64,000 nucleotides of DNA from positions 43,937 to 107,936 of the IMG/VR virus record IMGVR_UViG_3300022833_000005; one strand, written 5' to 3'. Position numbers and translations under genes: made by a program. Positions 9,001-28,487 of this stretch are shown here, one piece after another. Within the stretch, counting starts at the first letter, position 1, and every line of letters begins with the position of its first letter. The notes below the pieces were generated by a model. That model was given only the letters and a program-made list of their open reading frames with translations, was not told the origin of the DNA and made no database searches. The DNA comes from a virus.

Positions 9001-12000
9001 TTCTTAAATTTTATGAGGATAAAGATGGAGAAAGGGTAATGGAGATAATGGTTGGACGATGGTTTAAAAGCCCAAAGTCTGATGCTGAATTATTAGAATA
9101 TTTTAATAATACAAAAGAAGGTCAAAAAATATTATCTGGATTAGCTTTCCGTATACCAACACAAAAACAAAATTCTATTGATGCAATTAGAATTAAACAA
9201 TTTTTACCAGAGGAGTTTGGTGATAATGTTGTTGTTCCTGCTGGAATAGTTGCTAAGGTGGGATCAGATTTTGATATTGATAAATTATCTATTTACTTAA
9301 AGAATGTCTTTATGAATAAAGGTGATTTAAAACTTGTACCATTCTTTGGGTTTGGTCAACAAGCTAAAGATAAATTTGCTGCTATATTTGATCAAGGAGG
9401 TTTATTTACTAAAGAACAAAAACGTCAATTAGATTCTCTTGGTGCATTGAAAGCTTTTGAAGTGGAAGGATTGTTTGATACAGAAGAAGGAGAAACTTTT
9501 AAAGATTTACTTGGCCAGATGGGTATAGTTGATCAAGAAGACACACTGGTTACTTTTGTAAATGAGATGTCTGAAATAGGAGTAAAGGATGCAGTGGTAA
9601 ATAGATTATATAAACAATCTTTAGAGAATGAATTTATTCAATCATCTGAGAATTTAGTAACTCATCCATCAAACTTTCAGAGATTAATTACACCTAATTC
9701 TGCGGAGCAACTAAAAGCTCTTGGTAAATTTATTGCTGAAAAAACTACAGGTGGTACTTTTGATTATACTGATGTGTCAAACATGTTAGATAGAAGGTTC
9801 ATGGCTAGGCTTAGACATTCATTTGTTATAGGTAAACAAGCAATTGGTATTGCTGCAGTAAATCAAACTAATCATTCTTTAAATCAAAGATCTGCTGTAT
9901 ATGTAGATAAAGATAGAATGTCTAATGTTTCCATAGAAGATGCTGCATGGTTAACGGTAGGTAATGGTGATGTTAATTTTGAAAAATTTAATACAATTAA
10001 TATAGATGGAAGAAACCTTCCGTCATTATCAGGTGTAACTAATTCAGATGGTCAATTGATATCTGATATACTTGGTCAATTTATTGATGGTTATGTAGAT
10101 ATATCTAAAGGTCCTTGGATTATGGAACTTGGTGCTAAACCAAATGTTGCTGCCACATTTATGTTTTTAACAAAAATAGGAGTGCCAATTGATACAGTTT
10201 CATATTTCATGAATCAACCTATAATTCGTGAATACTTACAAGCAATTGAGAATAAAGGATATTCTTATTTGTTTATCCAGGATATAGTTAATGAAACATT
10301 AGAAGAGTATGATAATAGAGACACATCTGTTATAGAAAGAATCCCTACTAAAACTCTACTTAGAGGTAATGTAGGTAAAGAATCTTTTACTGCTAAAGAA
10401 AAGAACGAACAACAATTTATGTTATTAGAGTTCTTGAAGTATGCTAAAATGGCTAGTCAGTTATTTGAAGTTACACAAGGAACAAACTTTGATACATCAA
10501 ACTTTAATGATCCTTATTTAATATTTAAAAAAGGTGTACAGTTAGAAAGAGCAAAAAATACAATAATATCTTCAGTTGATGAAATTCTTGAAAATTCTTT
10601 TATAGGAAACTTAGCTGGTAAATTAAACCAGAGTAGAGATGCAATGGCTAATTTTCTAGTATCAGATAGAGGTACAGTGAGAGAGATTATACAAAAAGTT
10701 TTATTACCATACACAGGTGGAAATATAAATAATAAAAAGTTTGTAGGTATAGCAAGAAAAGTAGTCAATGATTTATTTGATTATGTTGTACAAACAGACC
10801 AGAATTTTAATTTAGCTTTACAAAAAATGTTATTGAGTGACAAAGGTGTTGCTTCTCAATTAGTTACATTTCTTAATCAAGTTAAGAAAAATCCAAGACA
10901 TCCTTTATTTCACAATCATGTAATTAATTTACTTGAAGTGAGAGCTCCCATTAGAGGTGGTGATTCTCTTCCTACTAATATAACTCTTAAGAATACTGAC
11001 AATAAAGTGTATGATCAAAATAGTATCATATATGGATTTCGTGAATTAAAAGAAGCATTAGAAGGTCAAAGTGATTTATATGATAATATAGTTACATTAT
11101 CTATATTACAATCAGGATTAGGTAATTCACCTATATCTTTTACATCACTTCTTCCTTATGAAGACTTTGAAAAAATATACAATAAATCCTTGTCTAAGAT
11201 TGAGAATATTCCTAACTTGAACGAATTTTACACCATTGGTGTATTTGAGAGAAATAATTGGAGTAAAAGTGATATAGTCCCTAGTACCAGTCTGTTTTCA
11301 AAGTTTGATGATAGGAAACAAAAGTTTGTTTATCCTAGTATAGAATACCTTCCGTCAAATGTAAAAGCTGCTATAACTAAGGGTACTGTTCCACAAATTG
11401 CAACCCAATCAGTATCGAGTGGTCAAGTTAATGATGATTACAAAGTGATGAGTTGGAGTAAGGATATTTCAAAATCAGCAAAAGCTGAAATGCGTAAAGC
11501 TGGAGATTATTCTTATATCAATAAAGGTTTGTTTAAAAAAGTATATCAATTAGATGGTACACCTTTAATTCATTCGTATGAAGATACCAAAGGTTTATTA
11601 AGGGAATACTTTGTATATAAAATGATAAATGCTTGGGGAGATAGTTTTAGAGCTCAAGAGTTTTATACAGAAGCTAAAGAGTCTGTTATTGATAATGGGT
11701 TTATAAAAGTGCCAAATGAAGTTTCAGATGCTACAGTTGTAAGTTTATATTCAAAAGAGAAACAAAAAAAAGTTACTAAATCTAATAGTATAACAGTTGA
11801 TCAAGCTAATAGTATAAATAATTTAAAAGATATAGAGCCTGCGTATAATCAATTTTCAAATTTTGATATACAATATGCAATTAATAGGCTAATACCTAAT
11901 AGTGAAAATAAAAATGTATTGTTTCATGGAACTGGTTTTGAAAATAAAATAACTTCTTTCAAGAAAAATAAGATAGGTATCTTTGCAAGTGACTTTACTA

Positions 12001-12437: not shown

Positions 12438-12438
12438 T

Positions 12439-15400
12439 ATGGCTACATGTCCAAATAAAAATTTAGAGTCTTGGAAATTACTTATATCATCAAGAGGTGA
12501 TGATATGGCTTATTACCTATGGGATAAATACGATGGTGAAGTTCCTAATGCTGAGATGACTCCTGCTATTGTAAAGTTTAATTTAAAAGCATTAGATATT
12601 CTTAATTCTGATAAAGCTATACAAGTTTTTGAAAAAGGTAAGAAGAATGGTTGGGATATTAATAAGATCTTAACAGAGCTTCAAGTACCTAAAGAGCAAA
12701 AGCAGATTATACTATCTAAAAATATATCAACTAGAGAGGAAATCATAACATCTCTATTAGCTGAAAATAGTTTTACTGTTGAGGTTAATGTAGGAGTAGA
12801 TGGGAATAAGTTTAAAAGTGATGTGTCACCTGAAAATATAAAAAGTATTAGTTTAGAAGAATACAATTCTATAAAAGTAGAAGAGATTGAAAACGGAACT
12901 AATAAATTAAAACCTGTTAAAAATGGAATGTACTTTAAAAATAAAAAAGGAGATACTTTTTTTGAACCAACAGTTGTAGAAAATAGTTCTTTTTACCGAG
13001 ATTTAACAGTTCCAGGTGGTGCTAATTATACAGAAAATGAAATATCTACACCTGCTATTACACCTAATATTAAAAGTCATGCACAATTTAGTACAGATAA
13101 TGGTATAGGGTGGTTTAGAAGTGATGAACAACTTAATGATTTAACAGATGAAACTAAATTTAGACCTGTTTATTCTTTAGATAAAATAGTTAGTTATATA
13201 GAAATTTCAACAGGATTAGAATATAATAAAAATAGTAAAAAACAAAATACACGTAGAATTTTAGAAGTACAATCTGATTTATTTCAGAAAGGTAGAGATA
13301 AAAAATCTTTAGTAAATAGTATGCCAGAAAAAGGAAACTATAAAATGTTTAAATATGGTGATTTTAATTATTTTACTGTAGATAATAAATTTTTTAAACA
13401 ACCTTTAGAAGATAAAAATGATCCCTATGGTGTACCTAAAGAAATTGAAATTAATAAATCTGAATATGATTTAGTAGTAAACAAAGAAATTAAAGAAAAC
13501 AATTTTCTTCAACTACTAAACAAAAAAGGTAATTGGGTAAACTTCTTTATACAATCTATAGTACAAGATAGTGTTAAAAAAGGTTATGAGAAAGTATTAT
13601 TTCCTACAGGTGAAACTGCTGCTAAGGTGGAAGGGCATCAAACTTTAGTTGAAGATATTGCTAAATGGGATAAAATTATAAATAAAGATTACAAAACTTG
13701 GAAATTAGAAGCTATAGATAATAATTTAGATGAAATTAACGAAAATGTTTGGAAAGGTAATATTATATATGCTAAAAATAAAAAAGAAGAATTAAAAACA
13801 CAAGGTATAGAAAAACTTAAACCTATTGAAGCTTTTTATACCAATACAGTTACTAATATACTTAATAAGTTATATGATGTAAATGAAATAACTGATGAGC
13901 ATGGTAACACTTGGAATGAAGTGACATTAGATCAAAGTTCTGTACAAGGGCAAAATATCTTATTACAAAAAGAAAACCAATCTTCAAATAAAACTAAAGC
14001 ATCTCAAGAAATTTTAAGTAAAGTTAAATTAATTATTAAGAGAATGGGAATAGATATTCAAACAATGATTGAATATTCTAAAAATAATCCTAATGTTGAT
14101 GTAACAAATGTTAATGGTTTAGCTGATTTAATTAATGGTATCATTGCTATATCTGAAGGTAAAGAAGACATTGCTCTTACAGAAGAGATGGTTCATATTG
14201 CTACAGCAATAATAGAGCAGAAAAATCCAAAATTGATTACAGAAATGATATCTAAAGTGGATAGGTTTAAAGTGTATAAAGAAACCTTTGAACAATATAA
14301 AGACATAGCTGCATATCAATTACCTAATGGTAAGCCAAACATTCGTAAAATAAAAAAAGAAGCTGTAGATAAACTTATAGCTGATCTTATTATTAATGAT
14401 GGTCAATCTTTTTCAGAACTTACAGAAGAAGAAAACAGATCTATCATAAGAAGAATGTGGGATGCAATTACAGATTGGTTTAGAGGACAACATAAAGCTA
14501 GTAATATAGATTTATTTCAAGAAAGTGCTACTAGAATTATACTAGGTAATTTTGAAGGGAATGTATTAGATTTAACTAGTAAAGAAGTTTACTATCAAGC
14601 TACAGATGCTCAGAAAAAATTACAACAAAAAATAATAGAGACCAGAGAAAGCTTAAGAAAAATAGAATCTAAAGAACCTATCAATCCTTTATTAATGGAT
14701 GAAGAAGGTGCTACTAGTTACTATGAAGTGTTAGTTGATGGTGAATATCAAAGAGTTACTAAGAGGGTAACTGATAGAGTTAAAGCTTGGTACACACAAA
14801 GGTTTGGAAAAAATAAAGATTGGACTGCTCAAGAAAAAAGAGATAATGAAGTTAAACGACAATTAGGAGTTGATTTTCATAATTATTTTGAGGAGATACA
14901 TGATAGATTTTTCAATACTGATGGTACAAGAAGAGAAAACTTTGGCCCACGTCCTAATATTCAAGATGCTACTAAAGATGCAGTGTATACTAAACTAGAA
15001 AAGTATTATGTAGATTTAATTTCTCAATTTTCTAGAGATGGAAAAAATCCATTAGTGTTTTCTGAAGTGATGGTGTATGATCCTAAACTTAAAGAGGCAG
15101 GTACAATTGATCTTCTTATCGTAGATCAAGATGGTACATCTCATATATATGATTGGAAGTTTATGAGTGTTGCCCAGGGTGCTGAAGATGTTGCTTGGTA
15201 TAAACAAGGAGCATATAATGTACAACTTGGTAGATACAAAGACATATTAAGATCAGCTTATGGTGTAAAACAAATAGGAAAGAATAGAGCTGTTCCTATT
15301 ATAATGGATTTACAAAGAGAAAATCCAAAAGACTTAAAAACTAATTTAAAAATTAAAGGAATTAAAATTGGTTCTGTAAACCCTAAAGAGATTCAAGATC

Positions 15401-18400
15401 TTAAACTTGTTCCAGTATCAGAAGAATCAGAATCTACAGGAATTAAAAAATTAGATGAGTTACTAGTAAAACTAAATGGTGTATATAAACAAATTACTAA
15501 AGATAAACCAATCACTGAAGAAGATAAAACTTTTAAAAGAGAGCGTTTAAATATTCTTAAGAAAGCTATTCGTACAGCACAGAGTACATTAAATATTGCT
15601 CCATTAGTTGATGTAATTAGAGTGATGAGGAAAGAAGGAGAGAATATAATTTCTGAATATAAAACTACATATGAAGGAAGACCTGCTACATCAGAAGATT
15701 TTAACGATGAGCAACTATCAGATTTTGCAGATAATATAAGAGAGTATGGTGATTTAGCTTCAGTGTTTCAAGATATAAACATTGACTTAAAGGATTTAAT
15801 TGAAGAAAAAGAAATTCTTGATTTAATACGTGCTGAGGCAGAAGCAATTAAAATATCCCTATATGAAATTAAAGAAATAGCTGGGGAATTTGCAGATAAA
15901 TTTATTGGTGAGAAAAATCTTGTGACTGGTTTAACTAAACCTGAAAAAGTAGTAAAAGGTTTAAGTTCTTTATTTAGAGGATTATCAGATTTACCACTAG
16001 CATCATTAAAACTTTTATACAAACTTGCTAATCGTGCAATGGGCTTTGCTAATGAAGATGCATTACAAGAAGTGAATGACCTTCTCGCAATAAGAGATAA
16101 ACTAAAAGCTAGAGGTGGAGATTTAAGAAAAACTGTACAGCAAATTTATCAAAAATCTAGTGAAGGTGGATTAGTAAATAAATTAATATACAGATATAAA
16201 AGAGAATTCTTCCAAGAGGTTGATGCAAATGCTGAAGAGGGAAGAAGAAGTAGACAGTGGTTAAAAGATAATGTTGATTTAAAAGGATATTCAATTGAAG
16301 CTTCTAAAATATTAAAAGAAAGACTTTCAAAAATTAATAAAACTTATGATGACGGTGAATTAAAAGAAAAACTTTTATTAGATGAAATGAGAAAGTGGGA
16401 TGTTTCTCGAAAAGATTTTAATGGTTTTAATAATTATGTAATCAAAAGACACCCTTTATTAAAATGGGAATCTACTGAATATATTAATCTTGCAAAAGAT
16501 CCAGAGTTATTTGAATTATATAATTATATAACTAAGATAAATAAAAAAGCACAGTCTGTAGGATATATAGAAAATAAAGTGCAATCTACATTTTTACCAT
16601 TTGTAAGAAAGACTATGGCTGAAAGTTTAGCTTGGGATTTTAGTTTAAGTTCAATAAGTAATTTTAGTGATAACTTATCAGTAAGAACTTCAGATGTAGG
16701 ATATGGGAATATTAATGAAGTTACTGGAGAGGTAGAAAATAGTATACCAAAATATTACACTTCAGATTTTACCAAGGGAGAAGATGGTGTAAATGATTAT
16801 TCTGATGTAAGTGAAGATATATTTAAGAACATGATAATGTACATTAACCATATGGAGAAGTACAAATACATGTCTGAAATAGAAGGTCAAATAAAATTAG
16901 TTCGTTCAATAGAAACATTCAAAGATCATTTACAAACTTCAAAATTTAGTAAGGTTGTAATGGATAGTAATGGTAAACCTATTATTGAAAAAGGAAATGC
17001 TGACAATGTAAAAATATTTGATTCATTTTTACAAACTGTTATATATGGTCAAAAATACACTGCTGATAATACAGATATTGCATTAGGTGATGGTTTACTT
17101 ACTAGTATTAAAAAAGGTATCAATTCTGTTGCAGGTAAAGAAGTATATAAAATTGGGGATAAACCTGGAAGTCTATCTCTAATTAAAACTATTGATGCGA
17201 TGAATAGGGCCTTTCAATTAAAGACTTTAGGATTTGAATTTATATCAGGTGCTGTAAATATATTTGGTGGTAACATACAAGTTGCTACTCAGGCAGGAAA
17301 CTACTTTAAAGCAAGAGAGTTTGCTAAAAATGAAATGATGTTAGTTGGTAATCGATTTAAGAACGATGATGAACGAAGTATGTTTATTCAACTTATTGAT
17401 AAATTCATGCCATTAAAAGATGATCCTACTTATGAGAAGATGAAAGCTGCAGGAATGTCTAAACTTACTCAGCAAAACTTTTCTGATATGTTATTTGTAT
17501 TCTTTAGAGAACCTGAACAACATTTAGAAAAAACAATATTCTACACATTGTTAGATAATATGATGGTTGAAGATGGTAAGGTTGTTAGTATTAGGGAGTT
17601 TGTAAAGAATAAATATAAAGATAGGTATAGTTCTGCAAGTAATTTTAGAGATTCTAAACAATCTATAGATGCAGAAATAGAGTCACTTAAAAAAACAAGA
17701 TCTATAAATTCTACTAAAAAATTAGTAGATGGTGAATTAGTTATACCAGGATTAGATTTAAGTAATAGAGAAGAGTTACAGCGTCTAACTAATTTATCAA
17801 GAAGTATTTCTAGAAATGCTACAGGTAACATGACAGATTTTGATACTAGTAGAATGAACATGAGTGTTTGGACTAGATCTATGATGGTGTTTAAAGGTTG
17901 GATTCCTAAACTTTTAGATACTAGATTTGGAGAATTTAGAAAGATAGCTGATGATTTCTCTGTAGAAATTGGAGAAGATGGAATGACTACTGGAGATAAA
18001 TATGATGTTGGTAGAGTTAGGTTATTTGGATCCTTTTTAAGTTTAAATATTGCTAAAACAGTTAAAGAAATAAATGATGTACTTATTGTAAATGATTCTG
18101 GTATTCTTAAATTAGATGAAATGTATGCACAATATGCACAATCTTATTTTGAAAGAACAGGTGATGAGTTACAAATGACTGCAGAAGATTTCAATGACTT
18201 AATAAGAAACAATTTACGTAATCAACTTAAAGAACTTGCAATTCTTATGTCATTATTTGGAGCCACCTTAGCTTTAGGGTTTATGGAACCAGAAGATGAT
18301 GAAGATAAAGCACATAAAAACTTTTATAGATTTGCACAAAGAGTTGTAGATAAATTTACAAGTGAATTGATGTTCTTCTATAATCCTATAGAAATGAAAA

Positions 18401-18663
18401 ACATCCTAGATGGGGGAATATTCCCTGCCATAGGATTAATAACAGATGTAGGAAGATTTACAGATCATTTCTTTATGGAGACTACAGGATTAGATTGGTC
18501 AAACACAGATCTTACAGCAGTTGAAGTGAGAAAAAAAGCTCAACCAATAAAGAATTTAATGAAAATGCTTCCTGTAAGTAAATCATTAGTTACATATCTT
18601 GCTATATCCAACTCTAAATTTGCTAAAGAGTTTGATGTAACTATTCAGAAACAAAGTAGATAA
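12439..18663 (+). CDS. Giant polyvalent virion/ejection protein with ELQSD-like and PD-(D/E)XK nuclease-like domains
   Basis: I chose the ATG at 12439, right after the upstream TAA (TAATATG), over an earlier in-frame ATG at 12406 that overlaps the previous gene. It gives MATCPNKNLESWKLL. The protein is about 2074 aa. Residues about 271-490 contain RRILEVQSDLFQKGR, then a FYTNTVTNIL/EHGNTWNEV segment, like the ELQSDWHQ domain common in phage polyvalent proteins. Residues about 810-960 hold HNYFEEIH, SEVMVYDP, AGTIDLLIVDQDG, IYDWKF and YNVQLGRYKDIL, the order expected for a RecB/Cas4-type PD-(D/E)XK nuclease. Residues about 1929-1949 are hydrophobic (AILMSLFGATLALGF). Position behind the RNA polymerase-like giant suggests a co-packaged, co-ejected partner. 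The nuclease fold is fairly convincing; its substrate is unknown. Confidence 0.68.
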   Translation: MATCPNKNLESWKLLISSRGDDMAYYLWDKYDGEVPNAEMTPAIVKFNLKALDILNSDKAIQVFEKGKKNGWDINKILTELQVPKEQKQIILSKNISTREEIITSLLAENSFTVEVNVGVDGNKFKSDVSPENIKSISLEEYNSIKVEEIENGTNKLKPVKNGMYFKNKKGDTFFEPTVVENSSFYRDLTVPGGANYTENEISTPAITPNIKSHAQFSTDNGIGWFRSDEQLNDLTDETKFRPVYSLDKIVSYIEISTGLEYNKNSKKQNTRRILEVQSDLFQKGRDKKSLVNSMPEKGNYKMFKYGDFNYFTVDNKFFKQPLEDKNDPYGVPKEIEINKSEYDLVVNKEIKENNFLQLLNKKGNWVNFFIQSIVQDSVKKGYEKVLFPTGETAAKVEGHQTLVEDIAKWDKIINKDYKTWKLEAIDNNLDEINENVWKGNIIYAKNKKEELKTQGIEKLKPIEAFYTNTVTNILNKLYDVNEITDEHGNTWNEVTLDQSSVQGQNILLQKENQSSNKTKASQEILSKVKLIIKRMGIDIQTMIEYSKNNPNVDVTNVNGLADLINGIIAISEGKEDIALTEEMVHIATAIIEQKNPKLITEMISKVDRFKVYKETFEQYKDIAAYQLPNGKPNIRKIKKEAVDKLIADLIINDGQSFSELTEEENRSIIRRMWDAITDWFRGQHKASNIDLFQESATRIILGNFEGNVLDLTSKEVYYQATDAQKKLQQKIIETRESLRKIESKEPINPLLMDEEGATSYYEVLVDGEYQRVTKRVTDRVKAWYTQRFGKNKDWTAQEKRDNEVKRQLGVDFHNYFEEIHDRFFNTDGTRRENFGPRPNIQDATKDAVYTKLEKYYVDLISQFSRDGKNPLVFSEVMVYDPKLKEAGTIDLLIVDQDGTSHIYDWKFMSVAQGAEDVAWYKQGAYNVQLGRYKDILRSAYGVKQIGKNRAVPIIMDLQRENPKDLKTNLKIKGIKIGSVNPKEIQDLKLVPVSEESESTGIKKLDELLVKLNGVYKQITKDKPITEEDKTFKRERLNILKKAIRTAQSTLNIAPLVDVIRVMRKEGENIISEYKTTYEGRPATSEDFNDEQLSDFADNIREYGDLASVFQDINIDLKDLIEEKEILDLIRAEAEAIKISLYEIKEIAGEFADKFIGEKNLVTGLTKPEKVVKGLSSLFRGLSDLPLASLKLLYKLANRAMGFANEDALQEVNDLLAIRDKLKARGGDLRKTVQQIYQKSSEGGLVNKLIYRYKREFFQEVDANAEEGRRSRQWLKDNVDLKGYSIEASKILKERLSKINKTYDDGELKEKLLLDEMRKWDVSRKDFNGFNNYVIKRHPLLKWESTEYINLAKDPELFELYNYITKINKKAQSVGYIENKVQSTFLPFVRKTMAESLAWDFSLSSISNFSDNLSVRTSDVGYGNINEVTGEVENSIPKYYTSDFTKGEDGVNDYSDVSEDIFKNMIMYINHMEKYKYMSEIEGQIKLVRSIETFKDHLQTSKFSKVVMDSNGKPIIEKGNADNVKIFDSFLQTVIYGQKYTADNTDIALGDGLLTSIKKGINSVAGKEVYKIGDKPGSLSLIKTIDAMNRAFQLKTLGFEFISGAVNIFGGNIQVATQAGNYFKAREFAKNEMMLVGNRFKNDDERSMFIQLIDKFMPLKDDPTYEKMKAAGMSKLTQQNFSDMLFVFFREPEQHLEKTIFYTLLDNMMVEDGKVVSIREFVKNKYKDRYSSASNFRDSKQSIDAEIESLKKTRSINSTKKLVDGELVIPGLDLSNREELQRLTNLSRSISRNATGNMTDFDTSRMNMSVWTRSMMVFKGWIPKLLDTRFGEFRKIADDFSVEIGEDGMTTGDKYDVGRVRLFGSFLSLNIAKTVKEINDVLIVNDSGILKLDEMYAQYAQSYFERTGDELQMTAEDFNDLIRNNLRNQLKELAILMSLFGATLALGFMEPEDDEDKAHKNFYRFAQRVVDKFTSELMFFYNPIEMKNILDGGIFPAIGLITDVGRFTDHFFMETTGLDWSNTDLTAVEVRKKAQPIKNLMKMLPVSKSLVTYLAISNSKFAKEFDVTIQKQSR

Positions 18664-18741: not shown

Positions 18742-19140
18742 ATGAGAACAGCTGAAATTTGCCCAACTTGTGCCACATTCCAAAATGCTGAATGCATTAT
18801 TTACAATGGCCCATACCTTTCTAATATTATTGTAAACCCTTTAGATAGTTTACAAACTATATTAATTGCAATTAATAATAACTTAATTCCTTTAACAGGA
18901 ATAACTGCAACACCTCCAGCAGGTGTACCTGCAACTTTTGTAGGTCAGTTATATTTAAGTCCAAATAGTCCATTAGTATATTATGCATCCACTTCGGGTA
19001 CTGCTGATGATTTTGAGGTATTAATAACTGCACCAAAAACAGGAGTTCCTCAATTTTCAAATAATGCAGCTGCTGTATTTGCAGGTTTAATTCCTGGACA
19101 AATATATAGAACAGCAGACTTTCTTAAAATAGTTTATTAG
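18742..19140 (+). CDS. Small virion-associated protein related to the fibre N-terminus
   Basis: A 132-aa protein with a Cys-containing N-terminus (EICPTCATFQNAECIIYNGPYL). Its pattern C-I-I-Y-N-G-P-Y-L...LDSLQTILIAINNNL is matched in the next gene by C-V-F-Y-E-G-P-N-L...VEEALKNIDALL. I infer a shared attachment or base module, so this protein is probably a short tail or fibre component, perhaps a paralogue without the shaft. Function of the rest (a Pro/Ala/Gly-rich beta-type segment) is not recognised. First gene after the promoter at 18705-18736; 24 bp before the fibre. Confidence 0.55.
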   Translation: MRTAEICPTCATFQNAECIIYNGPYLSNIIVNPLDSLQTILIAINNNLIPLTGITATPPAGVPATFVGQLYLSPNSPLVYYASTSGTADDFEVLITAPKTGVPQFSNNAAAVFAGLIPGQIYRTADFLKIVY

Positions 19141-19164: not shown

Positions 19165-22100
19165 ATGAACAAATTAGTTTGTGCAGCAAATCCTTGCCCA
19201 ATTATACTTAGTAGTGCATGTGTCTTTTACGAAGGCCCTAATTTATTATGTGCTAATATTTTAACAAATCAAACTGTTGAAGAAGCTCTTAAGAATATTG
19301 ATGCTCTCTTGTGTGCTGGTAAAGGTTTAGATGGTTCATCTGGTACATCTGGTACATCTGGTACAAGTGGCACAACTGGTACCAGTGGAACGTCTGCTAC
19401 ATCAGGAACATCAGGTACAAGTGGTACAAGCGGAACATCAGGTACAAGTGGTACAACAGGTACATCAGGTAGTAGTGGAACATCAGCTACAAGTGGAACA
19501 TCAGGTACGTCAGGTACTAGTGGTACATCAGGTACATCTGGTACAACAGGTACAAGTGGTACAACAGGTACAAGCGGTACTTCTGCTACTAGTGGTACAA
19601 GTGGAACAACAGGTACATCAGGTACATCTGGTACAACAGGTACGAGTGGTACAACAGGTACAAGCGGTACTTCTGCTACTAGTGGTACAAGTGCTACATC
19701 TGGCACTAGTGGTAGCTCTGGATATGATGGAGATAAATATAAAACAACATCTACTGATTCATTTTTATTATGCAATCCAGGATGTTTAACAGTTGATCTA
19801 GGATTAGCATTCACTCCTGGTCAGTCTATTGTTGTAGCTCATGATATAAATAATTATCAAGAATGTACAATAATAACATACAACTCTGCTAATGGAGAAT
19901 TATGTTTTACAGAACCAATAACTTGTGTAGGAAGTGGTACATATAGTGAATGGTATATAAATTTAGATGGATCAACCGGTGGTGATGGGTCTTCTGGTAC
20001 TAGTGGTACTAGTGGAACAACAGGTACTAGTGGTACGTCTGGTACAAGTGGTACTAGTGGTACATCAGGTACAACAGGTACAAGTGGTACAAGTGGTACA
20101 TCTGGTACAAGTGGTACGACAGGTACATCTGGTACGACAGGTACAAGCGGAACATCTGCTACCAGTGGAACAACAGGTACAAGTGGTACAACAGGTACAA
20201 GTGGTAGTAGTGGCACAACAGGTACAAGTGGTACAAGTAGTACATCAGGTAGCAGTGGTACAGTTGGTACATCTGGTACATCTGGTACATCAGCTACATC
20301 TGGTACAAGTGGTACATCAGGTAGTAGTGGTACAACTGGTACTAGTGGTACAACAGGTACAACAGGTACATCTGGTACAAGTGGATTAAATGGTTCGTCT
20401 GGAGCAGCAATAGCAAATTGGTATGCAAGTTTTTCTGATAGCACTACTCAATCTCTTTCAGCATCAAATGTTTCAACAGCAATTACATTTAATACAATAG
20501 AATTAAACAATGGAGTTGCCTTAGATTTTAATCAAGAAATAAGATATCCACATGCAGGAATATATGAAGTAGGTTATTCTTTACAACTAAAGCAATCTGG
20601 AAGTGAAACTTCGTATTCTAGCGTTGATGTATTTTTAAGAAAAAATGGTAATGACATTATAAGGAAAGATAGATTAATTGATATTGAACCAGGAGGTAGG
20701 GTTAATTTACCTTTTGCTTCATTTATATTGAATTTAGAAGCAAATGATTATTTAGAATTAATGTTTGCTTCTACTAATCCAAATATTCAAATTTCAGCAG
20801 TTGCAAGTTCATCTTCTCCTTATACTAAACCTGCTGCACCTTCAGTTATATTTATTACAAAACAAATAGGAGTGTCCGTAGGATCAACTTCTGGAATATC
20901 AGGTACAACAGGTACAAGTGGTACAAGTGGTACATCTGGTACAAGTGGCACAACTGGTACAAGTGGCACAACTGGTACATCTGGTACAAGTGGTACAAGT
21001 GGTACAAGTGGTACTTCAGGACTTCTTGGATCCGCAGCAGTTCCTTTAGTTATTACTGGTACTAATATTTCTATCAATCAATCTAGCTCAATTGCTAATG
21101 GTTTTTTAAGCTCAACAGATTGGAACAATTTTAATAATAAAGCAAACACAGCTTCTCCTACATTTACAGGAACAGTTGGCGGTATAACAAAAGAAATGGT
21201 AGGACTTGGAAACGTAGACAATTTGCCAAGTCTTTTTATAGAAAACGCAACTGGAGGTAGCCAATCAACACAAAGAGTTGGAGCGGGTACTGCAACAGGA
21301 AGTCAATCTACTATAAGTGGTGGTGAAAATAATAATTCAAGTGGCGATTATTCAACAGTTGGTGGTGGTCGTACTAATATTTCGAGTGGTAATTATTCAA
21401 CAGTTGGTGGTGGTCGTATTAATACTTCGAGTAGTTTTTATTCAACACTTAGCGGTGGTCTTAGTAATATTTCGAGTGCTAATTATTCAACAGTTGGTGG
21501 TGGTCAGACTAGTACTGCGAGTGGTTTTTATTCAACAGTTAGCGGTGGTTATATGAATGTTGCAAGTAACACTAACTCTACAGTAAGTGGAGGGGTTAGC
21601 AATACAGCAAGTGGTGGTTATTCAACAATAAGCGGTGGTAAATCTAATACAGCATCAGCTGGTCTTTCTTCAATACTAGGTGGTGCCTATAACAACACAT
21701 CAACATTTGTTAACTCACACATTATAGGTAGTAATATAATAGCATCTGTAGCAAATACTACTTTCGTTGAAGACTTATCTATTAAGAATATTCCAATTGG
21801 CTCAACTTTAGAGGTTGGAGCAAACAATGTCTTGATAGCGGGTTCAGCGGGTGGAGCAAGTCTTTTTGAAGAAAACGCAACAGGAGGAGTTGGTTCAACA
21901 CAAAGAGTTGGTTCGGGTACAGCATCAGGTAATACTTCAACAGTTAGTGGTGGAGATACTAACATAGCATCAGGTGATAGCTCAACAGTTGGTGGTGGTA
22001 TAGCGAACACAGCATCAGATAATAAATCTACAGTTGGTGGTGGAAGTAATAATCAAGCTACGGGTAGTTATTCTACAATTGGTGGTGGTAAGAACAACGC

Positions 22101-22710
22101 AGCTAGTGCATTCAGTAGTTTTATGGGTACTACTAAGGGTTCTACGGTAAGTGGAGGTGGAAATAATACCGCAGGTGGTGTCGGGGGTAATTCGGGCTAT
22201 GAAACAATTGGCGGTGGACATCATAATATAGCAAGTGGGGATGTGTCTACCATTAGTGGTGGAGATACTAACATAGCATCAGGTGATAGCTCAACAGTTG
22301 GTGGTGGTTGGAATAACACAACAAGTACTCGATTTACAGTAATAGCTGGTGGTGGTATAAATACTGCAAGTGCTCCTTACGGAGTAGTAAGTGGAGGTAA
22401 GGACAATATAGTAAGTGGTAATCATTCTACAATAAGCGGTGGTCGTAATAATACTGCGAGTAGTTTTTATTCAACAGTTGGTGGTGGTTTTAGTAATATT
22501 TCGAGTGCTAATTATTCTTCAATAACGGGTGGAAAATTAAACAACACATCAACATTTGCTAACTCACACATTATAGGTAGTAATATAACTTCTAACAGAA
22601 TAAATACTACATTTGTACAGAATTTATCAATTACAACTATTCCAACAGCAAGTGCGGGATTACCTTCGGGTTCAGTTTGGAGTAACGGAGGGGTTTTAAA
22701 TATAGTATAA
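19165..22710 (+). CDS. Collagen-like tail fibre with C1q-like domain and YadA-like beta-roll tip
   Basis: 1181 aa. Residues 1-55 form a Cys-rich base similar to the upstream protein. Shaft blocks of GTSG/GTTG tripeptide-like repeats lie at about 56-185, 271-412 and 573-622. Between them are a beta-domain (about 190-270) and a C1q/TNF-like jelly roll (about 414-568: WYASFSDSTTQSL...GIYEVGYSLQL...VFLRKNG). Then comes a typical fibre trimerisation stretch (LSSTDWNNFNNKA...PTFTGTVGGITKEMVGLGNVDN, about 640-690). Residues about 700-1172 are YSTVGGG/YSTISGG repeats like the head of YadA-type trimeric adhesins, arranged as two homologous halves each ending in NSHIIGSNI...TTFV. The role is receptor binding at the virion tip; the trimer is inferred from the family. 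The Ser/Thr-rich shaft is a plausible acceptor for the modifying enzymes encoded just downstream. Confidence 0.85.
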   Translation: MNKLVCAANPCPIILSSACVFYEGPNLLCANILTNQTVEEALKNIDALLCAGKGLDGSSGTSGTSGTSGTTGTSGTSATSGTSGTSGTSGTSGTSGTTGTSGSSGTSATSGTSGTSGTSGTSGTSGTTGTSGTTGTSGTSATSGTSGTTGTSGTSGTTGTSGTTGTSGTSATSGTSATSGTSGSSGYDGDKYKTTSTDSFLLCNPGCLTVDLGLAFTPGQSIVVAHDINNYQECTIITYNSANGELCFTEPITCVGSGTYSEWYINLDGSTGGDGSSGTSGTSGTTGTSGTSGTSGTSGTSGTTGTSGTSGTSGTSGTTGTSGTTGTSGTSATSGTTGTSGTTGTSGSSGTTGTSGTSSTSGSSGTVGTSGTSGTSATSGTSGTSGSSGTTGTSGTTGTTGTSGTSGLNGSSGAAIANWYASFSDSTTQSLSASNVSTAITFNTIELNNGVALDFNQEIRYPHAGIYEVGYSLQLKQSGSETSYSSVDVFLRKNGNDIIRKDRLIDIEPGGRVNLPFASFILNLEANDYLELMFASTNPNIQISAVASSSSPYTKPAAPSVIFITKQIGVSVGSTSGISGTTGTSGTSGTSGTSGTTGTSGTTGTSGTSGTSGTSGTSGLLGSAAVPLVITGTNISINQSSSIANGFLSSTDWNNFNNKANTASPTFTGTVGGITKEMVGLGNVDNLPSLFIENATGGSQSTQRVGAGTATGSQSTISGGENNNSSGDYSTVGGGRTNISSGNYSTVGGGRINTSSSFYSTLSGGLSNISSANYSTVGGGQTSTASGFYSTVSGGYMNVASNTNSTVSGGVSNTASGGYSTISGGKSNTASAGLSSILGGAYNNTSTFVNSHIIGSNIIASVANTTFVEDLSIKNIPIGSTLEVGANNVLIAGSAGGASLFEENATGGVGSTQRVGSGTASGNTSTVSGGDTNIASGDSSTVGGGIANTASDNKSTVGGGSNNQATGSYSTIGGGKNNAASAFSSFMGTTKGSTVSGGGNNTAGGVGGNSGYETIGGGHHNIASGDVSTISGGDTNIASGDSSTVGGGWNNTTSTRFTVIAGGGINTASAPYGVVSGGKDNIVSGNHSTISGGRNNTASSFYSTVGGGFSNISSANYSSITGGKLNNTSTFANSHIIGSNITSNRINTTFVQNLSITTIPTASAGLPSGSVWSNGGVLNIV
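19333..19716 (+). repeat. First block of GTSG-coding 9-nt-type tandem repeats
   Basis: Imperfect repeats of the form ggtacatct / ggtacaagt / ggtacaaca encode Gly-Thr-Ser and Gly-Thr-Thr triplets in the fibre shaft. Serine codons alternate between TCN and AGY, so the DNA is less repetitive than the protein. Confidence 0.85.
19990..20385 (+). repeat. Second block of GTSG-coding repeats
   Basis: Same triplet repeat type as the first block, encoding the second collagen-like shaft segment between the inserted beta-domain and the C1q-like domain. Good substrate for slippage or recombination between phage fibre genes. Confidence 0.85.
20899..21019 (+). repeat. Third, short block of GTSG-coding repeats
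   Basis: About 120 bp of the same repeat, encoding a short neck between the C1q-like domain and the trimerisation/tip region. Confidence 0.8.
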
Positions 22711-23131: not shown

Positions 23132-23950
23132 ATGAATAAAAAAATCTTTTACAATTCTTCTTTGCCAAGGGCGGGTTCGACTTTAATATCTAATATTATT
23201 GCTCAAAACCCTAACTTTTATTGCACTCCAACTTCGGGTGTTTCTGATTATCTTTTAGGCAATAGAGCGACTTTTATTAATTCCCAACCTATTAAGGCAC
23301 AAAATAAAGAAAATATGGAAAAATCATTCTTTAATTATGCTAAATTTGGTATTCAAGGGTATTTTAGTGAATTAACTGACAAGCAGTTAATACTTGACAA
23401 AAGTAGAGATTGGGCGATTAATTATAGGTTGTTAGATGAAATCTATGCAAATCCTAAAATTATTTGTATGGTTAGAGATGTTAGGGCAATCTATTCTTCT
23501 ATGGAGAAAAACTTTAGAAAAAATCCTCACAAAGAAAATCATATACAAAATGTATCACAGTTAGTTGGAACTACTTTAGACAAAAGAGTTGATATTTGGG
23601 CAGATGGTTTACCCGTAGGTGTTGCAATGGATAGGTTAAAAGATATTTTTCAACAAGGGCTAGATAAACATATTTTATTTATTCGCTATGAAGATTTAAT
23701 GTCAAACCCAAAAGAAACAATGAATAGGGTGTATGACTATTTTCTTATTGATAGATTTGAACATTCATTTGATAAAATAGAACAATTAACACAAGAAGAT
23801 GATGGCGTTCACGGAATATATGGCGACCATAAATTAAGGCAAAAATTTAATATGTTACCAAATGATTTTGAAGAAATTTTAGGAATAGAATTATCTGAAA
23901 AAATTAAAAATACTTATCAGTGGTTTTTTAATAAATTCTACACGCTATGA
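23132..23950 (+). CDS. Sulfotransferase-like protein
   Basis: 272 aa. The N-terminus FYNSSLPRAGSTLISNII is the 5'-phosphosulfate-binding loop of PAPS-dependent sulfotransferases (the usual P-R-x-G-S-T pattern). Residues about 110-130 (ICMVRDVRAIYSSME) match the 3'-phosphate-binding R-D-P/V-R...S strand, and later IRYEDLMSNPKETMNRVYDYF is the typical C-terminal family signature. It should transfer a sulfuryl group from PAPS to a sugar or Tyr/Ser acceptor. It is followed with a 4-nt overlap (ATGA) by an APS kinase that would supply PAPS. The acceptor is unknown; fibre glycans or protein are the obvious candidates by position. Confidence 0.8.
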   Translation: MNKKIFYNSSLPRAGSTLISNIIAQNPNFYCTPTSGVSDYLLGNRATFINSQPIKAQNKENMEKSFFNYAKFGIQGYFSELTDKQLILDKSRDWAINYRLLDEIYANPKIICMVRDVRAIYSSMEKNFRKNPHKENHIQNVSQLVGTTLDKRVDIWADGLPVGVAMDRLKDIFQQGLDKHILFIRYEDLMSNPKETMNRVYDYFLIDRFEHSFDKIEQLTQEDDGVHGIYGDHKLRQKFNMLPNDFEEILGIELSEKIKNTYQWFFNKFYTL

Positions 23951-24396
23951 TATATTGGTTCACAGGGCAACCATCCCACGGAAAAACAGTTTTAGCAAAT
24001 TTGTTAAAAGATATATTTAAGGACAAAAAAGTGTTTCACGTTGACGGAGATGATTTAAGAGCCTTAACTTTGAATAAGGACTATTCCAAACAAGGTAGGT
24101 TAGATAATGTAAGAGGTGCGCAAAAAATAGCCCATTATCTACACAACGAAGGTTGTACGGTGGTGGTTTCATTAGTTTCTCCTTACAGAGAGCAAAGAGA
24201 ACAGTTAAAGAGTGTTTTAGGGGAAAACATTATTGAAATATTTATACACACAACAGAAGCAAGAGAAAGAGATTGTTATAGGGTTGAAGACTATGAAAAA
24301 CCGTTAGAAAACTTTATTGATATTGATACGACTTTTGATACACCCGAACAATCACTTAAAAAAATAATAGAAAAATGTCAGATAGAAAATATTTAG
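23947..24396 (+). CDS. cysC: Adenylylsulfate (APS) kinase
   Basis: 149 aa. Walker A GQPSHGKT at residues 7-14, then HVDGDDLR (about 31-38) and DYSKQGRLDNVRGAQKIAHYL, equivalent to the DGDNVR and dRxxNIRR motifs of CysC, and VVVSLVSPYREQRE. It phosphorylates APS with ATP to make PAPS, the sulfate donor. A little shorter than typical bacterial CysC (about 180-200 aa). Overlaps the sulfotransferase by 4 nt and the next gene by 22 nt, so the three are translated together. Confidence 0.85.
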   Translation: MIYWFTGQPSHGKTVLANLLKDIFKDKKVFHVDGDDLRALTLNKDYSKQGRLDNVRGAQKIAHYLHNEGCTVVVSLVSPYREQREQLKSVLGENIIEIFIHTTEARERDCYRVEDYEKPLENFIDIDTTFDTPEQSLKKIIEKCQIENI

Positions 24397-24779
24397 TCCA
24401 ATCCGCAACTCAGTCTTCATTTAGTGAAGTAAAATTCTCTATGTATATTGGAAGATGGCAACCTTTTCACACAGGTCATAGATGGTTAATCGACCAAAGA
24501 TTAGACGAGGGAAAAAATATCTTAATTTGTATTAGAGATATAGCACCCGATGAAAAGAATCCTTGGACAGCAGAAGAGGTTACATTGAACTTAAATAAAG
24601 TATTAAAGGATTTAATTGAAGAGGGTCGTGTTAAAATTATAACTATTCCCGACATAGAATCTATTAATATTGGTAGGGGTGTTGGATATGATATTATAGA
24701 ACACTTACCACCTAATGAAATTAAAGAAGTATCAGCTACTAAAATTAGAAATCAAATGAAAAAAGATGGTAAATTATAA
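24375..24779 (+). CDS. Cytidylyltransferase-like nucleotidyltransferase
   Basis: 134 aa. YIGRWQPFHTGHRWLID is the HxGH nucleotidyltransferase loop in the G-R-F/W-Q-P-F-H form of NMN adenylyltransferases, and EVSATKIRNQMK near the C-terminus is the matching IS-x-T-x-I-R phosphate-binding motif. The family transfers AMP or CMP. Sitting between APS kinase and DUF2061 it may provide APS (an ATP-sulfurylase-like job) or activate another group; the motif form favours the NadM-like family, so the substrate is open. Confidence 0.72.
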   Translation: MSDRKYLVQSATQSSFSEVKFSMYIGRWQPFHTGHRWLIDQRLDEGKNILICIRDIAPDEKNPWTAEEVTLNLNKVLKDLIEEGRVKIITIPDIESINIGRGVGYDIIEHLPPNEIKEVSATKIRNQMKKDGKL

Positions 24780-24975
24780 AAGGCATTTAGGCAAAACTAT
24801 TTCTTGGAGAATTATAGGCACTTTAGATACTATTATTTTATCAGGATTAATAACGGGAGATTTTATGATTGGCTTATCTATTGGAGGTGTAGAAGTCTTT
24901 ACAAAAATGATATTATACTTTTTCCACGAAAGAGCTTGGTATAAATACTCTAAATTTGGATTAGATAAAAAATAA
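24766..24975 (+). CDS. DUF2061 membrane protein
   Basis: 69 aa. Pattern KRHLGKTISWRIIGTLDTIILSGLITG...GLSIGGVEVFTKMILYFFHERAW is the DUF2061 family, with two hydrophobic segments (about 16-32 and 34-53). DUF2061 proteins are, as I recall, recurrent neighbours or fusion partners of APS kinases. Start overlaps the previous gene by 14 nt. Its job is unknown; a membrane anchor or transport role in the sulfation cassette is inference. Confidence 0.8.
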   Translation: MVNYKRHLGKTISWRIIGTLDTIILSGLITGDFMIGLSIGGVEVFTKMILYFFHERAWYKYSKFGLDKK

Positions 24976-25010: not shown

Positions 25011-28000
25011 TCAAAATCTAAACCATTTTTCTGAAATTAATAAATTAATTTTTTCTATTACTTGAACTGATTTAATACTCCTATGGCATTCAAAATGTCT
25101 AGGAGTATTTTTATGTTCAGGGCACCAATTCCAATCTCCCTTATCGAATGTATGTTCAGTTTTATTCCAACAACTGTTACATACAGATAAATCTTTTACT
25201 CTATAGCATTTAAATTCATGACTTTCTTCAGTGAAGTTTGATATCATAATAACTTCTTTATCTAAGGCCCAAGCTAACCAACTCAATCCTGAAGACAATC
25301 CTATAAAGAATTCACTTTGTGTGATCCATTCTATAGTGCTTTCTAATGATTTATTCTGAAGAGGTTCACAATTATCAAAAGGATTATCTTCTAATGAAAC
25401 ATTCTTAATAATATAGCCTTCTTTGTGCAAGTAATTAATTACATCTTGCCATCCTTCTCTGGTCCAATATTTACATCCTGCTGTACTATTTGTAGCTATT
25501 GTAACTAGTTTATAGTGTGCTTTATTTCCTGATTTATATATTTTTGGTTTTATTTCTACATAACTCAATCCTAATATATTTGTAGCTGTTTTTTGTAATG
25601 GTATTGTATTTGGTAATTCAGGTTCTTTATTAGTATTATAGAACCATCCTATTTTATACATTGCATATAAATTAGGTGCAACCTCTCCAGGTTTAATAAA
25701 TTCTAATTCAGGATATTCATTTTCAAATAAGAAATTTTTATAAGTGCTAACAATCATCTTACATTTATGCTTTTTACGAAACTCTTCAACATAGGGTATC
25801 CATGCAATTGTATCTCCTAAAGAAGAGCTATCAAAAGCTATGTAAACACGTTCATTTTCTAAATTAAATTCTTTAGTATATACAACCTTTCCATCTTCTG
25901 TCTTTATTATTGTTTTCCAGGCAGTATAATATTCTCTATCAAGTCTTATCCAAGAATTAACACCTATTGTGTTATTATATATAAGTTTTTCACCATCATA
26001 CATTTCAACAGTAAATTTTTTATTAGATGTACCTTTTATTTCTAAATACGGTTTACCTACAAAATGTTGTATAACATAAAAGTCTTCTTTAATTTTATTT
26101 TGCATCACATCAATATTTAATACTCTGTTATATAAACTTTTATGATTGCCTCCAAATGTAATATTTGTATTATTACTAGGAACTTCATAGACATCTTTAC
26201 TATCTAATGCTTTTTTTAATTGATCATCTATGTTTGATAATCCAACATTTTCAATTGCATGTATGTACTTTGTAAACATATTTCCATACTGAGGTAAGTT
26301 GCGTGCAATTATTGGAAGATTATAAGATATAGCTTCTCTCAACACTAGAGGATTGCATTCCCAAGTGCTATTAAACATAAATACATCTGCAGCTAACATA
26401 AATAAATGTGTATCTGATCTTTCTCCCCATATGTGTACATTAGAAGGTACATCTTTCATAATTGGTTCCCAATATTCACTAAAGTTTACTGCTTGATTAC
26501 CTACAAAATGAAAATCTACATTTGGAAAGCTTCTTGCTAGTTCTACACCTTCTCCCTGATTTTTTCCTTTAGTCCACAGTCCTATATTTACTACATGTTT
26601 TCTATTATTATCAAAACCTAATTCATATTTTGCTTCAACTTTTGATTTTAGATTATTTACAACAGGTTCTATTGGAAATTCAATTACGTCTTTGTAAGAA
26701 GGTGTATCTTTAAATGTTTTTAAATGATAAGAAGTGCAAAAAGCATAAGCTTCTGGATGATATTTTTTTTCTGTATCTGGAGAAAAAGATATGTTATGAC
26801 ATGTTTCTATAATTTTCCATGTTCTATCGTTTGCATACAATAAGTTAAGTACTTCTGCTGATCCATTTCCTAAGTGTTCAGACATTTCATCTATGTGTAC
26901 AATATCAATTTTGTTATTTCTTATAATATCAATGAGTTCTGTTTTATCTTCTCCTAATGTATAGATGTTTTTTACTATTTCTCTTATTTGATTTTTCTGT
27001 ACAACATACTCGTCACTGTAATTAGCCCACTCTACTACATAAATATTAAATCCAACTAATGATTTTATTCTTCTAAGTAAGAATTCAGGCATACCACCTG
27101 TAGATAAATGTGGAGCAATGAATAAAACTTTTTTTGAAAGTTGGTTTATTGTGTCTTGCATTATACTAATGTCTTTTTCTCCATGAAAAGCTAATAGATG
27201 TTCTTCTTTTGCAGGTGTGGCAACCCATTCTGATATATGATTTACCTCACCCGTAAATTTAAAACTACTTACATCTACTTTACCCTTATAGTTTATATAC
27301 ATTAGAGGAAGTCCTATGTGGATATTATGTTTCCACAATAACACATTCATTATAGTTTCTTCGTGATAAGGGGCATACAATTGTGGGTTTTTCACTATAG
27401 CTGGATGACTGCACATCCAAGACCATTCATCAATAAAATTACGAGAATTCTGACCAGCTACAAAGTAACCACTTTGTCTATACTTATTTCTAACTGATTG
27501 ATCTACATTAAAAAGTTTACATGCAGCATGTTCTAAACTTTCATGTAAATCATCTCTAGTTTCTACTCCACCACGACCATTAATAAATAAATAATCATAT
27601 ACACCTTCTACAAAGTATGGATGTGTAGCTTCATTAGGTAGATAATCAAATATAGTATCTATATATTTAGTTACTACAGTGTCTGAATCTATATAAGCTA
27701 TTGTCAAAGCATGCTTATCTAAAGCATCTGCAACAATTAAAGGTCTTTGTATTAGTAATTTATAAATCTGAGAGTTATTTCTATCTAAATAGTTATTTTT
27801 TTCTATGTGTACACCTTCTAAATTCCATTCAATTGTTTTGTATGCACCTTTTATTTTTATATCAGAGTTTATCATATACACTATTACAGGTATATTGCTA
27901 ACATTATTGATACTTTTTACAGCCATTGTTACTATTTCACTATAAGATGCATTTGCATATAATATGTATGATTTTTCCAATTTCATATGTATATACGTAT

Positions 28001-28487
28001 AATACCCATAATACTCGTTAGAGAAAATACATTTAAGTTTTGGATAACGTTCTGTCATTACATCTGGTGTAAGATCAAGTTGATGGTGAGTTTCGTGTAT
28101 ATTCCCTTCATGCTCTCCCTGCTCCATTTCATAAGGAATAGCAACTAAACAGTCTTTACCTAATTCAATAATTTTATCAATTAATTCTATAGCTTGATCT
28201 TTATGTAAATGTTCTAAAACATCTCCTAGAATAATAAAATCATAGTCTACTATAGAGAACTCAAGTATGTCTTTACAATATACATTATCATACTTTTTGA
28301 TTAACCCATATTTATAGATGTAAGGACTATATATCTCCACTGCATCTATATTATAGCTTTCTGATTCTAATAAATCTGCGTAAGTTCCTATACCAGGACC
28401 TACATCTAATAGTCTTTTATGAGTTGGGACATTGTCTTGAAACCACTGTTTTACTTCAGTTTTAAATAAATAAAAGCTAATAGGCAT
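25011..28487 (-). CDS. Four-domain methyltransferase / glycosyltransferase / autotransporter-heptosyltransferase-like fusion
   Basis: I chose the ATG at 28487 (1158 aa); a TTG at 28508 lies inside a promoter-like element. Residues about 1-165: class I SAM methyltransferase (LLDVGPGIGTYADLL at 26-40, then ILGDVLEHL). About 180-440: GT-A glycosyltransferase with YIDSDTVV (DxD near 266) and a late HEETIMNVLLW. About 450-740: GT4-like GT-B domain (FIAPHLSTGGMPEFLLRR, NIGLWTKGKNQGEGVELA, MFNSTWECNPLVLREA). About 760-870: beta-rich linker. About 880-1158: GT9/heptosyltransferase-like domain ending in a cysteine cluster, CNSCWNKTEHTFDKGDW, then WCPEHKN and FECHRSI, which I recognise as the Fe-binding signature of autotransporter heptosyltransferases (TibC/AAH). 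Those enzymes O-glycosylate Ser in adhesin repeats. Convergent with the fibre/sulfation genes. Acceptor and sugars are unknown. Confidence 0.8.
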   Translation of the reverse strand: MPISFYLFKTEVKQWFQDNVPTHKRLLDVGPGIGTYADLLESESYNIDAVEIYSPYIYKYGLIKKYDNVYCKDILEFSIVDYDFIILGDVLEHLHKDQAIELIDKIIELGKDCLVAIPYEMEQGEHEGNIHETHHQLDLTPDVMTERYPKLKCIFSNEYYGYYTYIHMKLEKSYILYANASYSEIVTMAVKSINNVSNIPVIVYMINSDIKIKGAYKTIEWNLEGVHIEKNNYLDRNNSQIYKLLIQRPLIVADALDKHALTIAYIDSDTVVTKYIDTIFDYLPNEATHPYFVEGVYDYLFINGRGGVETRDDLHESLEHAACKLFNVDQSVRNKYRQSGYFVAGQNSRNFIDEWSWMCSHPAIVKNPQLYAPYHEETIMNVLLWKHNIHIGLPLMYINYKGKVDVSSFKFTGEVNHISEWVATPAKEEHLLAFHGEKDISIMQDTINQLSKKVLFIAPHLSTGGMPEFLLRRIKSLVGFNIYVVEWANYSDEYVVQKNQIREIVKNIYTLGEDKTELIDIIRNNKIDIVHIDEMSEHLGNGSAEVLNLLYANDRTWKIIETCHNISFSPDTEKKYHPEAYAFCTSYHLKTFKDTPSYKDVIEFPIEPVVNNLKSKVEAKYELGFDNNRKHVVNIGLWTKGKNQGEGVELARSFPNVDFHFVGNQAVNFSEYWEPIMKDVPSNVHIWGERSDTHLFMLAADVFMFNSTWECNPLVLREAISYNLPIIARNLPQYGNMFTKYIHAIENVGLSNIDDQLKKALDSKDVYEVPSNNTNITFGGNHKSLYNRVLNIDVMQNKIKEDFYVIQHFVGKPYLEIKGTSNKKFTVEMYDGEKLIYNNTIGVNSWIRLDREYYTAWKTIIKTEDGKVVYTKEFNLENERVYIAFDSSSLGDTIAWIPYVEEFRKKHKCKMIVSTYKNFLFENEYPELEFIKPGEVAPNLYAMYKIGWFYNTNKEPELPNTIPLQKTATNILGLSYVEIKPKIYKSGNKAHYKLVTIATNSTAGCKYWTREGWQDVINYLHKEGYIIKNVSLEDNPFDNCEPLQNKSLESTIEWITQSEFFIGLSSGLSWLAWALDKEVIMISNFTEESHEFKCYRVKDLSVCNSCWNKTEHTFDKGDWNWCPEHKNTPRHFECHRSIKSVQVIEKINLLISEKWFRF

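Follow-up and report, generated by a model that had tools for sequence, protein, structure and literature searches.

A phage fusion protein with a BAHT-type domain encoded beside a Ser/Thr-rich tail fibre: a candidate modular fibre glycosyltransferase

The DNA analysed here, a stretch of 64,000 nucleotides (positions 43,937 to 107,936 of IMG/VR record IMGVR_UViG_3300022833_000005, below called the window), originates from a virus of aquatic bacteria. It encodes a polypeptide of 1158 amino acids (P0001) in which a methyltransferase and two glycosyltransferases are fused to a C-terminal BAHT domain, the type represented by the protein glycosyltransferases TibC and AAH. From the domains and the gene linkage we infer that this fusion protein is probably a modular protein O-glycosyltransferase that decorates the phage's own fibre, and the Ser/Thr-rich tail fibre encoded close by is quite probably the acceptor of its BAHT domain. 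The features that carry this interpretation are listed below (S-adenosylmethionine is abbreviated as SAM).

25011..28487, minus strand: fusion of methyltransferase, GT-A, GT4 and BAHT domains (P0001), 1158 amino acids; open reading frame (ORF), profile and fold matches
27993..28487, minus strand: domain 1, SAM methyltransferase, residues 1-165; Methyltransf_23
27132..28001, minus strand: domain 2, GT-A glycosyltransferase of the retaining type, residues 163-452, with DxD motif D267/D269; model and fold
26118..27131, minus strand: domain 3, GT4-like GT-B glycosyltransferase, about residues 453-790; Glycos_transf_1 and MshA/PimB/BshA fold matches
25014..26090, minus strand: domain 4, BAHT-type protein O-glycosyltransferase with N-terminal beta-barrel, residues 800-1158; TIGR04414 and TibC fold
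25335..25337, minus strand: T1051, replacing the adenine-contacting Arg286 of TibC; residue map
25086..25181, minus strand: iron-finger Cys4 (C1103, C1106, C1122, C1134); alignment to TibC
19165..22710, plus strand: tail fibre and probable acceptor, 1181 amino acids, with (G-T-S)n collagen-like and YadA-head-like repeats; Pfam and PHROG matches

Domains of the fusion protein and comparison with TibC

The ORF of the fusion protein runs from an ATG at 28487 to a stop at 25011, with a TTG at 28508 as alternative start; a Shine-Dalgarno sequence precedes neither codon. The protein has no transmembrane-type segment (maximum KD19 value 1.28) and falls into no PHROG family. An initial annotation, made from the letters of the sequence, had proposed a four-part fusion in the order methyltransferase, DxD-containing GT-A, GT4 and Cys-cluster domain, an order that is borne out by profile and fold matches. 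The class I methyltransferase was recognized by the Pfam profile Methyltransf_23 at residues 21-109 (32.6 bits, cut-off 27), and the Glycos_transf_1/GT4 match covers residues 622-763. The GT-A region gave no match in the Pfam scan of the whole protein, its profile found no solved structure related by sequence, and it was placed by fold comparison alone. Since the top 50 PDB structures matching the whole model were almost only BAHT and GT-B proteins, this domain was modelled separately with AlphaFold (pLDDT 90.9), and the fold matches GT6 enzymes (ABO, alpha-1,3-galactosyltransferase) and GT24 with E about 3e-8. As an isolated domain it shows a weak GT8 match below the cut-off (E=0.0015; 5.6e-6 for the best family member), and both Asp residues of the DxD motif are invariant in 31 relatives. 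The model of the full protein has a pLDDT of 84.5 and a pTM of 0.51, and because of the latter the mutual arrangement of the domains cannot be read from it.

The C-terminal part is almost certainly a BAHT-type protein glycosyltransferase. Residues 824-1148 match TIGR04414 (hepto_Aah_TibC, NCBIfam) with 268 bits (E=1.2e-79) against a curated cut-off of 200, and no other family matches as well; a lipopolysaccharide (LPS) enzyme of the WaaC type was considered for this domain and rejected (22 bits). A sequence match to the TibC structures 4rap/4rb4 was found at E=4e-45. Foldseek aligned the model with 4rap over 377 columns (E=7e-27, TMt about 0.82), a match that spans the entire TibC chain together with its N-terminal beta-barrel, of which the strands lie at residues 803-873 in the predicted model.

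Relatives were collected by an IMG/VR scan seeded with the fusion protein, which yielded 163 stretches. The best 80 of these together with the window form 46 clusters at 85% identity, or 55 when relatives from other searches are included. For comparison we used 80 contigs from bacterial genomes that carry a BAHT, 74 of the autotransporter type and 6 phage-like, and residue conservation was counted over the 55 phage and 74 bacterial BAHT sequences. TibC positions were transferred to the fusion protein through a phmmer alignment, with residue roles taken from the structural study of TibC. In that enzyme Asp110 is catalytic, Thr226 and Lys230 bind phosphate, Trp305 contacts the sugar and Cys339, Cys342, Cys358 and Cys370 form an iron finger; mutation of the Asp, Lys, Trp or Cys residues abolished or largely diminished activity (PMC4358343). 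The first four residues correspond to D892, T1002, K1006 and W1070 of the fusion protein, each of which is invariant in the 55 phage sequences. The resemblance of the Cys cluster to that of TibC/AAH, pointed out in the initial annotation, extends in the alignment to a one-to-one correspondence of C1103, C1106, C1122 and C1134 with the four iron-binding residues, and these are invariant in all phage and bacterial sequences.

Two elements of TibC are not retained. Arg286, which contacts adenine and thereby provides ADP specificity (PMC4358343), is present in 74/74 bacterial BAHTs and in only 1/55 phage enzymes, 45 of which have Thr at this position. The thumb segment (TibC 244-284) counts 40-41 residues in all bacterial BAHTs (median 41) and has a median of 31 in the phage enzymes, the beta-hairpin thumb of which is about 10 residues shorter than that of TibC; TibC depends on residues at the thumb tip both to form its dodecamer and to be active (PMC4358343). 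At the position of Pro300, which is related to stereoselectivity, most phage enzymes have Ser, as does AAH. A quick maximum-likelihood tree unites the autotransporter-type enzymes in a group with an SH-aLRT value of 100, and 46 of the phage enzymes in a second one with the same value; the deeper branching order lacks resolution and several rows have long branches. Because Arg286 and the full thumb are lost, neither the dodecamer nor the ADP-heptose donor of TibC can be transferred to the fusion enzyme. Judged by sequence, the phage enzymes are a BAHT subfamily with an intact catalytic apparatus that probably does not form rings in the TibC manner and is not safely ADP-heptose-specific. The TibC/AAH identity proposed in the initial annotation therefore stands for family, fold, catalytic residues and Cys cluster, and does not extend to the Arg that confers ADP specificity or to the thumb hairpin.

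The BAHT domain is the constant part of the system. It is found in all IMG/VR relatives, in many of which at least one other domain is absent, and its N-terminal partners range from methyltransferase, GT-A and GT4 through GT-A and GT4, another region with GT4, or another region alone, to none, the standalone form having 383 amino acids. In L060, L076 and L080 the GT-A, GT4 and BAHT proteins are encoded by separate neighbouring genes. The occurrence of the same set in fused and separate form argues for a shared pathway. The 173 kb contig of locus L127 (G067) harbors two different BAHT genes, both above the cut-off.

Linkage of BAHT genes to Ser/Thr-rich repeat genes

The adjacent repeat-rich fibre gene that the initial annotation had noticed was confirmed at 19165-22710. 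Its product matches the collagen repeat profile PF01391 with 117 bits, as well as the PHROG families of collagen-like minor tail and tail fiber proteins. In its GXY triplets X is Thr (85%) or Ser and Y is Ser (71%) or Thr (23%).

Such a neighbour is common among the relatives. With a criterion of at least 42 Ser+Thr per 100 residues, a Ser/Thr-rich ORF was present in 25 of the 31 independent BAHT clusters that came from the protein search and had 5 kb or more of downstream sequence; the median distance to this ORF was 1.3 kb. The repeats are (G-[TS]-S)n collagen-like or TP-rich, and in nearly all clusters the repeat gene lies downstream of the BAHT gene and convergent with it. Instead of or in addition to this gene, L007, L024, L025, L035, L037 and L047 have genes of fibre size with TP-rich, mucin-like repeats (TPTQTPTNTPT) upstream of BAHT. 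The pair is also present in a cultured virus, the Microcystis phage Mel-JY01, where a 1226-amino acid BAHT fusion annotated as FkbM is accompanied by a nearby ORF with 149 GXY triplets. On the Mel-JY01 genome (L205:2-3052, PP395634.1) the annotation places two hypothetical proteins on the opposite strand over most of the long plus-strand GXY ORF.

Several control sets show that the repeat gene and the BAHT gene occur together. Among 80 loci anchored on the neighbouring amidase gene there was one Ser/Thr-collagen locus, L210, which is also the only control with a BAHT; in amidase controls of at least 10 kb a Ser/Thr-rich ORF was seen in 2/40, including that same BAHT-bearing locus. A blind set of 25 contigs of 44-165 kb, selected by ribonucleotide reductase, contained an above-cut-off BAHT in 2/25 and the repeat in the same 2/25 (Fisher p=0.003), and a third contig had a divergent BAHT below the cut-off and no repeat. 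In the bacterial set, GXY Ser/Thr repeat genes were found beside 6/6 phage-like and 0/74 autotransporter-type BAHTs; by the looser Ser/Thr-content measure a Ser/Thr-rich ORF is also present in 4/74 autotransporter-type contigs. In the reverse direction, a BAHT was detected in 17 of 36 contigs selected by the repeat alone, a few of which also belong to the BAHT set.

Among the six phage-like loci, at least L316 and L319 have the appearance of phage contigs placed in bacterial bins; PHROG 2, searched for as a phage marker in all six genomes, was given little weight. Locus L318 (3596-5178 of an Arenicellales genome contig) looks cellular and represents a minimal version of the pair, in which the gene for a lipoprotein-like (GTSGTTGTSG)n protein of 112 amino acids precedes a standalone BAHT gene by about 108 bases.

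A further comparison is offered by 11 loci that share the gene for a 2085-amino acid protein preceding the fibre. Among those on contigs of 111-115 kb, 4/4 have a BAHT. For three of them the stretch compared includes the Ser/Thr fibre; for the fourth it stops just short of the fibre, which is present in the sequence surrounding its BAHT (L003). The shorter contigs mostly end inside the fibre. In L298 the 2085-amino acid gene is directly followed by a holin-like gene, and both the Ser/Thr fibre and BAHT are missing. These loci are consistent with fibre and BAHT moving together; as they are few and most end inside the fibre, they support co-loss and cannot prove it. In the window the 2085-amino acid protein (12406-18663, plus strand, directly before the fibre region) matches a PDDEXK nuclease weakly in its central part. 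Another long ORF in the window (3-12437, plus strand, 4144 amino acids) has no convincing family match.

Proposed pathway, donor sugar and alternatives

The space between the fibre gene and the fusion gene in the window is occupied by a cassette overlooked in the initial annotation, with a gene for a sulfotransferase and one for adenosine 5'-phosphosulfate (APS) kinase, the latter a potential source of 3'-phosphoadenosine 5'-phosphosulfate (PAPS). The genes around the fibre are the following.

18742..19140, plus strand: small protein preceding the fibre, with relatives at the same fibre-adjacent place in related phages
23132..23950, plus strand: sulfotransferase (PF13469), candidate fibre-glycan modifier; profile match, recurs in relatives
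23947..24396, plus strand: APS kinase (PF01583), would supply PAPS; profile match
24375..24779, plus strand: nucleotidyltransferase of the CTP_transf_like / NMN (nicotinamide mononucleotide) adenylyltransferase type, cassette member; profile match
24766..24975, plus strand: membrane-type protein of 69 amino acids, conserved in the cassette; recurs in relatives

The 69-amino acid protein is presumably DUF2061-like. The combination of sulfotransferase and APS kinase is present in 7/46 BAHT clusters and 0/80 controls, and sulfation of the fibre glycan in the window phage is a possibility to which we give somewhat less than an even chance. Other BAHT islands harbor genes for carbamoyltransferases, 2-oxoglutarate (2OG)-Fe(II) oxygenases, radical SAM proteins, FkbM proteins and NeuD-type acetyltransferases. 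Beside the carbamoyltransferase and 2OG-Fe(II) oxygenase genes of L024 (12453-14738, minus strand) a 761-amino acid protein with Hint/intein domains is encoded.

In the pathway that we propose, the fusion enzyme would be made by the phage and act in the cytoplasm, where the BAHT module would link a first sugar, probably a heptose, to the hydroxyl groups of Ser/Thr in the G-[TS]-S repeats of the fibre (in other phages in TP-rich repeats) before or during fibre assembly. Extension of this sugar would fall to the GT4 and GT-A modules and capping of the glycan to the methyltransferase, and the neighbouring sulfotransferase and APS kinase may add sulfate. The comparative genomics thus backs the suggestion, already made in the initial annotation, that the enzyme may decorate the fibre.

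For a heptose as the BAHT donor the chances appear about even, with heptose genes in some relatives only. L028 encodes an HldE1-like kinase, an HldE2-like nucleotidyltransferase and an HldD-like epimerase beside BAHT, none of which reaches its equivalog cut-off; rfaE_dom_II-like matches occur in 9/46 BAHT contigs; and the huge phage LR756504 has GmhA above the cut-off together with a standalone BAHT.

Several observations weigh against the proposed role or its details. The rfaE_dom_II profile also matches other nucleotidyltransferases, and control genomes match it too; the record from which the window was taken gave no heptose-synthesis match with the rfaE_dom_II and GmhA profiles; and with Arg286 lost, the donor nucleotide is not fixed as ADP. 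The TP-rich repeats are mostly Thr, whereas TibC modifies Ser and not Thr (PMC4358343). Near the BAHTs of L019, L023, L028, L032, L053 and L054 no repeat gene was found. About half of the repeat-selected contigs, many of which are fragments, show no BAHT, and the letter composition of the repeat is equal with or without BAHT in the locus. The repeat thus does not depend on the BAHT enzyme, and the idea that its letters are tuned to this enzyme was dropped. The fibre glycan itself is a prediction from the genes.

According to the usual proposal for phage glycosyltransferases, the enzyme would act on the surface of the infected host, altering its LPS or capsule so as to block superinfection. Such a reading exists for the glycosyltransferases that pelagimyophages encode in their host-recognition cluster (PMC7029224) and for a heptosyltransferase of a huge wastewater phage (PMC10747093), and the carbamoyl- and acetyltransferase genes of related islands are also known in O-antigen loci. 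For the fusion protein it is nevertheless unlikely: the best match is a protein O-heptosyltransferase with an iron finger instead of WaaC/F (268 versus 22 bits), BAHT tracks a Ser/Thr-rich virion repeat gene, and the cellular BAHT of L318 adjoins a secreted-type G-T-S repeat protein.

The linkage could also be indirect, with fibre and glycosyltransferase genes merely gathering in a hypervariable island and having no enzyme-substrate relation. The near one-to-one correlation in the blind contigs and the 6/6 phage-like BAHTs of bacterial contigs, the specific convergent and downstream arrangement, and the joint absence of Ser/Thr fibre and BAHT in L298 make this quite unlikely, even if islands of this kind do hold both types of gene (PMC7029224) and half of the repeat contigs lack a BAHT. 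That the enzyme is a plain TibC/AAH heptosylating an autotransporter adhesin of the host during infection is hardly credible. It would agree with the above-cut-off TIGR04414 match and with the retained catalytic and Cys residues, but the autotransporter-type BAHTs are a clade of their own, all with Arg286 and the 40-41-residue thumb segment, features which the phage enzymes lack apart from one Arg, and no autotransporter gene occurs in the neighbourhood examined. Decoration of the phage's own fibre therefore remains our preferred interpretation.

Significance and comparison with known systems

Our literature searches brought up no study of a BAHT in a phage, of fibre heptosylation or of cysC paired with a sulfotransferase in phages, and in the publications consulted on phage glycosyltransferases the pairing of BAHT with a repeat fibre is undescribed. 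The readings given in them are modification of the host surface (PMC7029224, PMC10747093) or of DNA, the exception in the sources cited being the mycobacteriophage capsid and tail tube (see below). The present interpretation offers such enzymes a concrete protein substrate, and it suggests for phage cysC-type and sulfotransferase genes a role outside sulfur metabolism, which may be virion sulfation. Tentatively, we suggest that many aquatic phages may possess proteoglycan-like fibres, whose Ser/Thr- or TP-rich stalks would be O-glycosylated by assembly-line fusions. The first sugar would be anchored by a module derived from BAHT, altered in donor specificity and lacking the TibC ring; subsequent methylation, sulfation or carbamoylation of the glycans would be the work of cassettes that commonly pass for auxiliary metabolic genes. 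If fibres are glycosylated, the views on receptor binding, stability and sequence-only prediction of host range need revision. The pair in the cultured phage Mel-JY01 makes the proposal directly testable, and the modular enzymes would serve as tools for glycosylating collagen-like repeats.

With TibC/AAH (TIGR04414) the phage BAHT shares the fold of the whole domain, the N-terminal beta-barrel, the catalytic Asp, the Thr/Lys/Trp donor site and the Cys4 iron finger. Unlike these enzymes, it is fused behind a methyltransferase and two glycosyltransferases, and its neighbour is a Ser/Thr fibre with collagen/YadA repeats and not an autotransporter partner. A glycosylated collagen-like protein is also known from the spore of Bacillus anthracis, where the Thr-rich GXY (GPT) repeats of BclA carry O-glycan; that system differs in being cellular and in its GPT repeats, enzymes and sugars.

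Pelagimyophages likewise have glycosyltransferases in a variable fibre island, and their genomes contain collagen and YadA repeats and an rfaE gene. The glycosyltransferases were read as modifiers of the host O-chain, and neither a heptosyltransferase nor fibre glycosylation is described there (PMC7029224). In mycobacteriophages, virion proteins carry glycans, and phage-encoded glycosyltransferases were proposed as their makers (Freeman et al. 2023, as cited in PMC12619734 and PMC11256854). In the passages of these two papers that cite that work the targets are the C-termini of capsid and tail-tube proteins, whereas in the phages described here the target is likely the collagen-like fibre and the anchoring module a BAHT.

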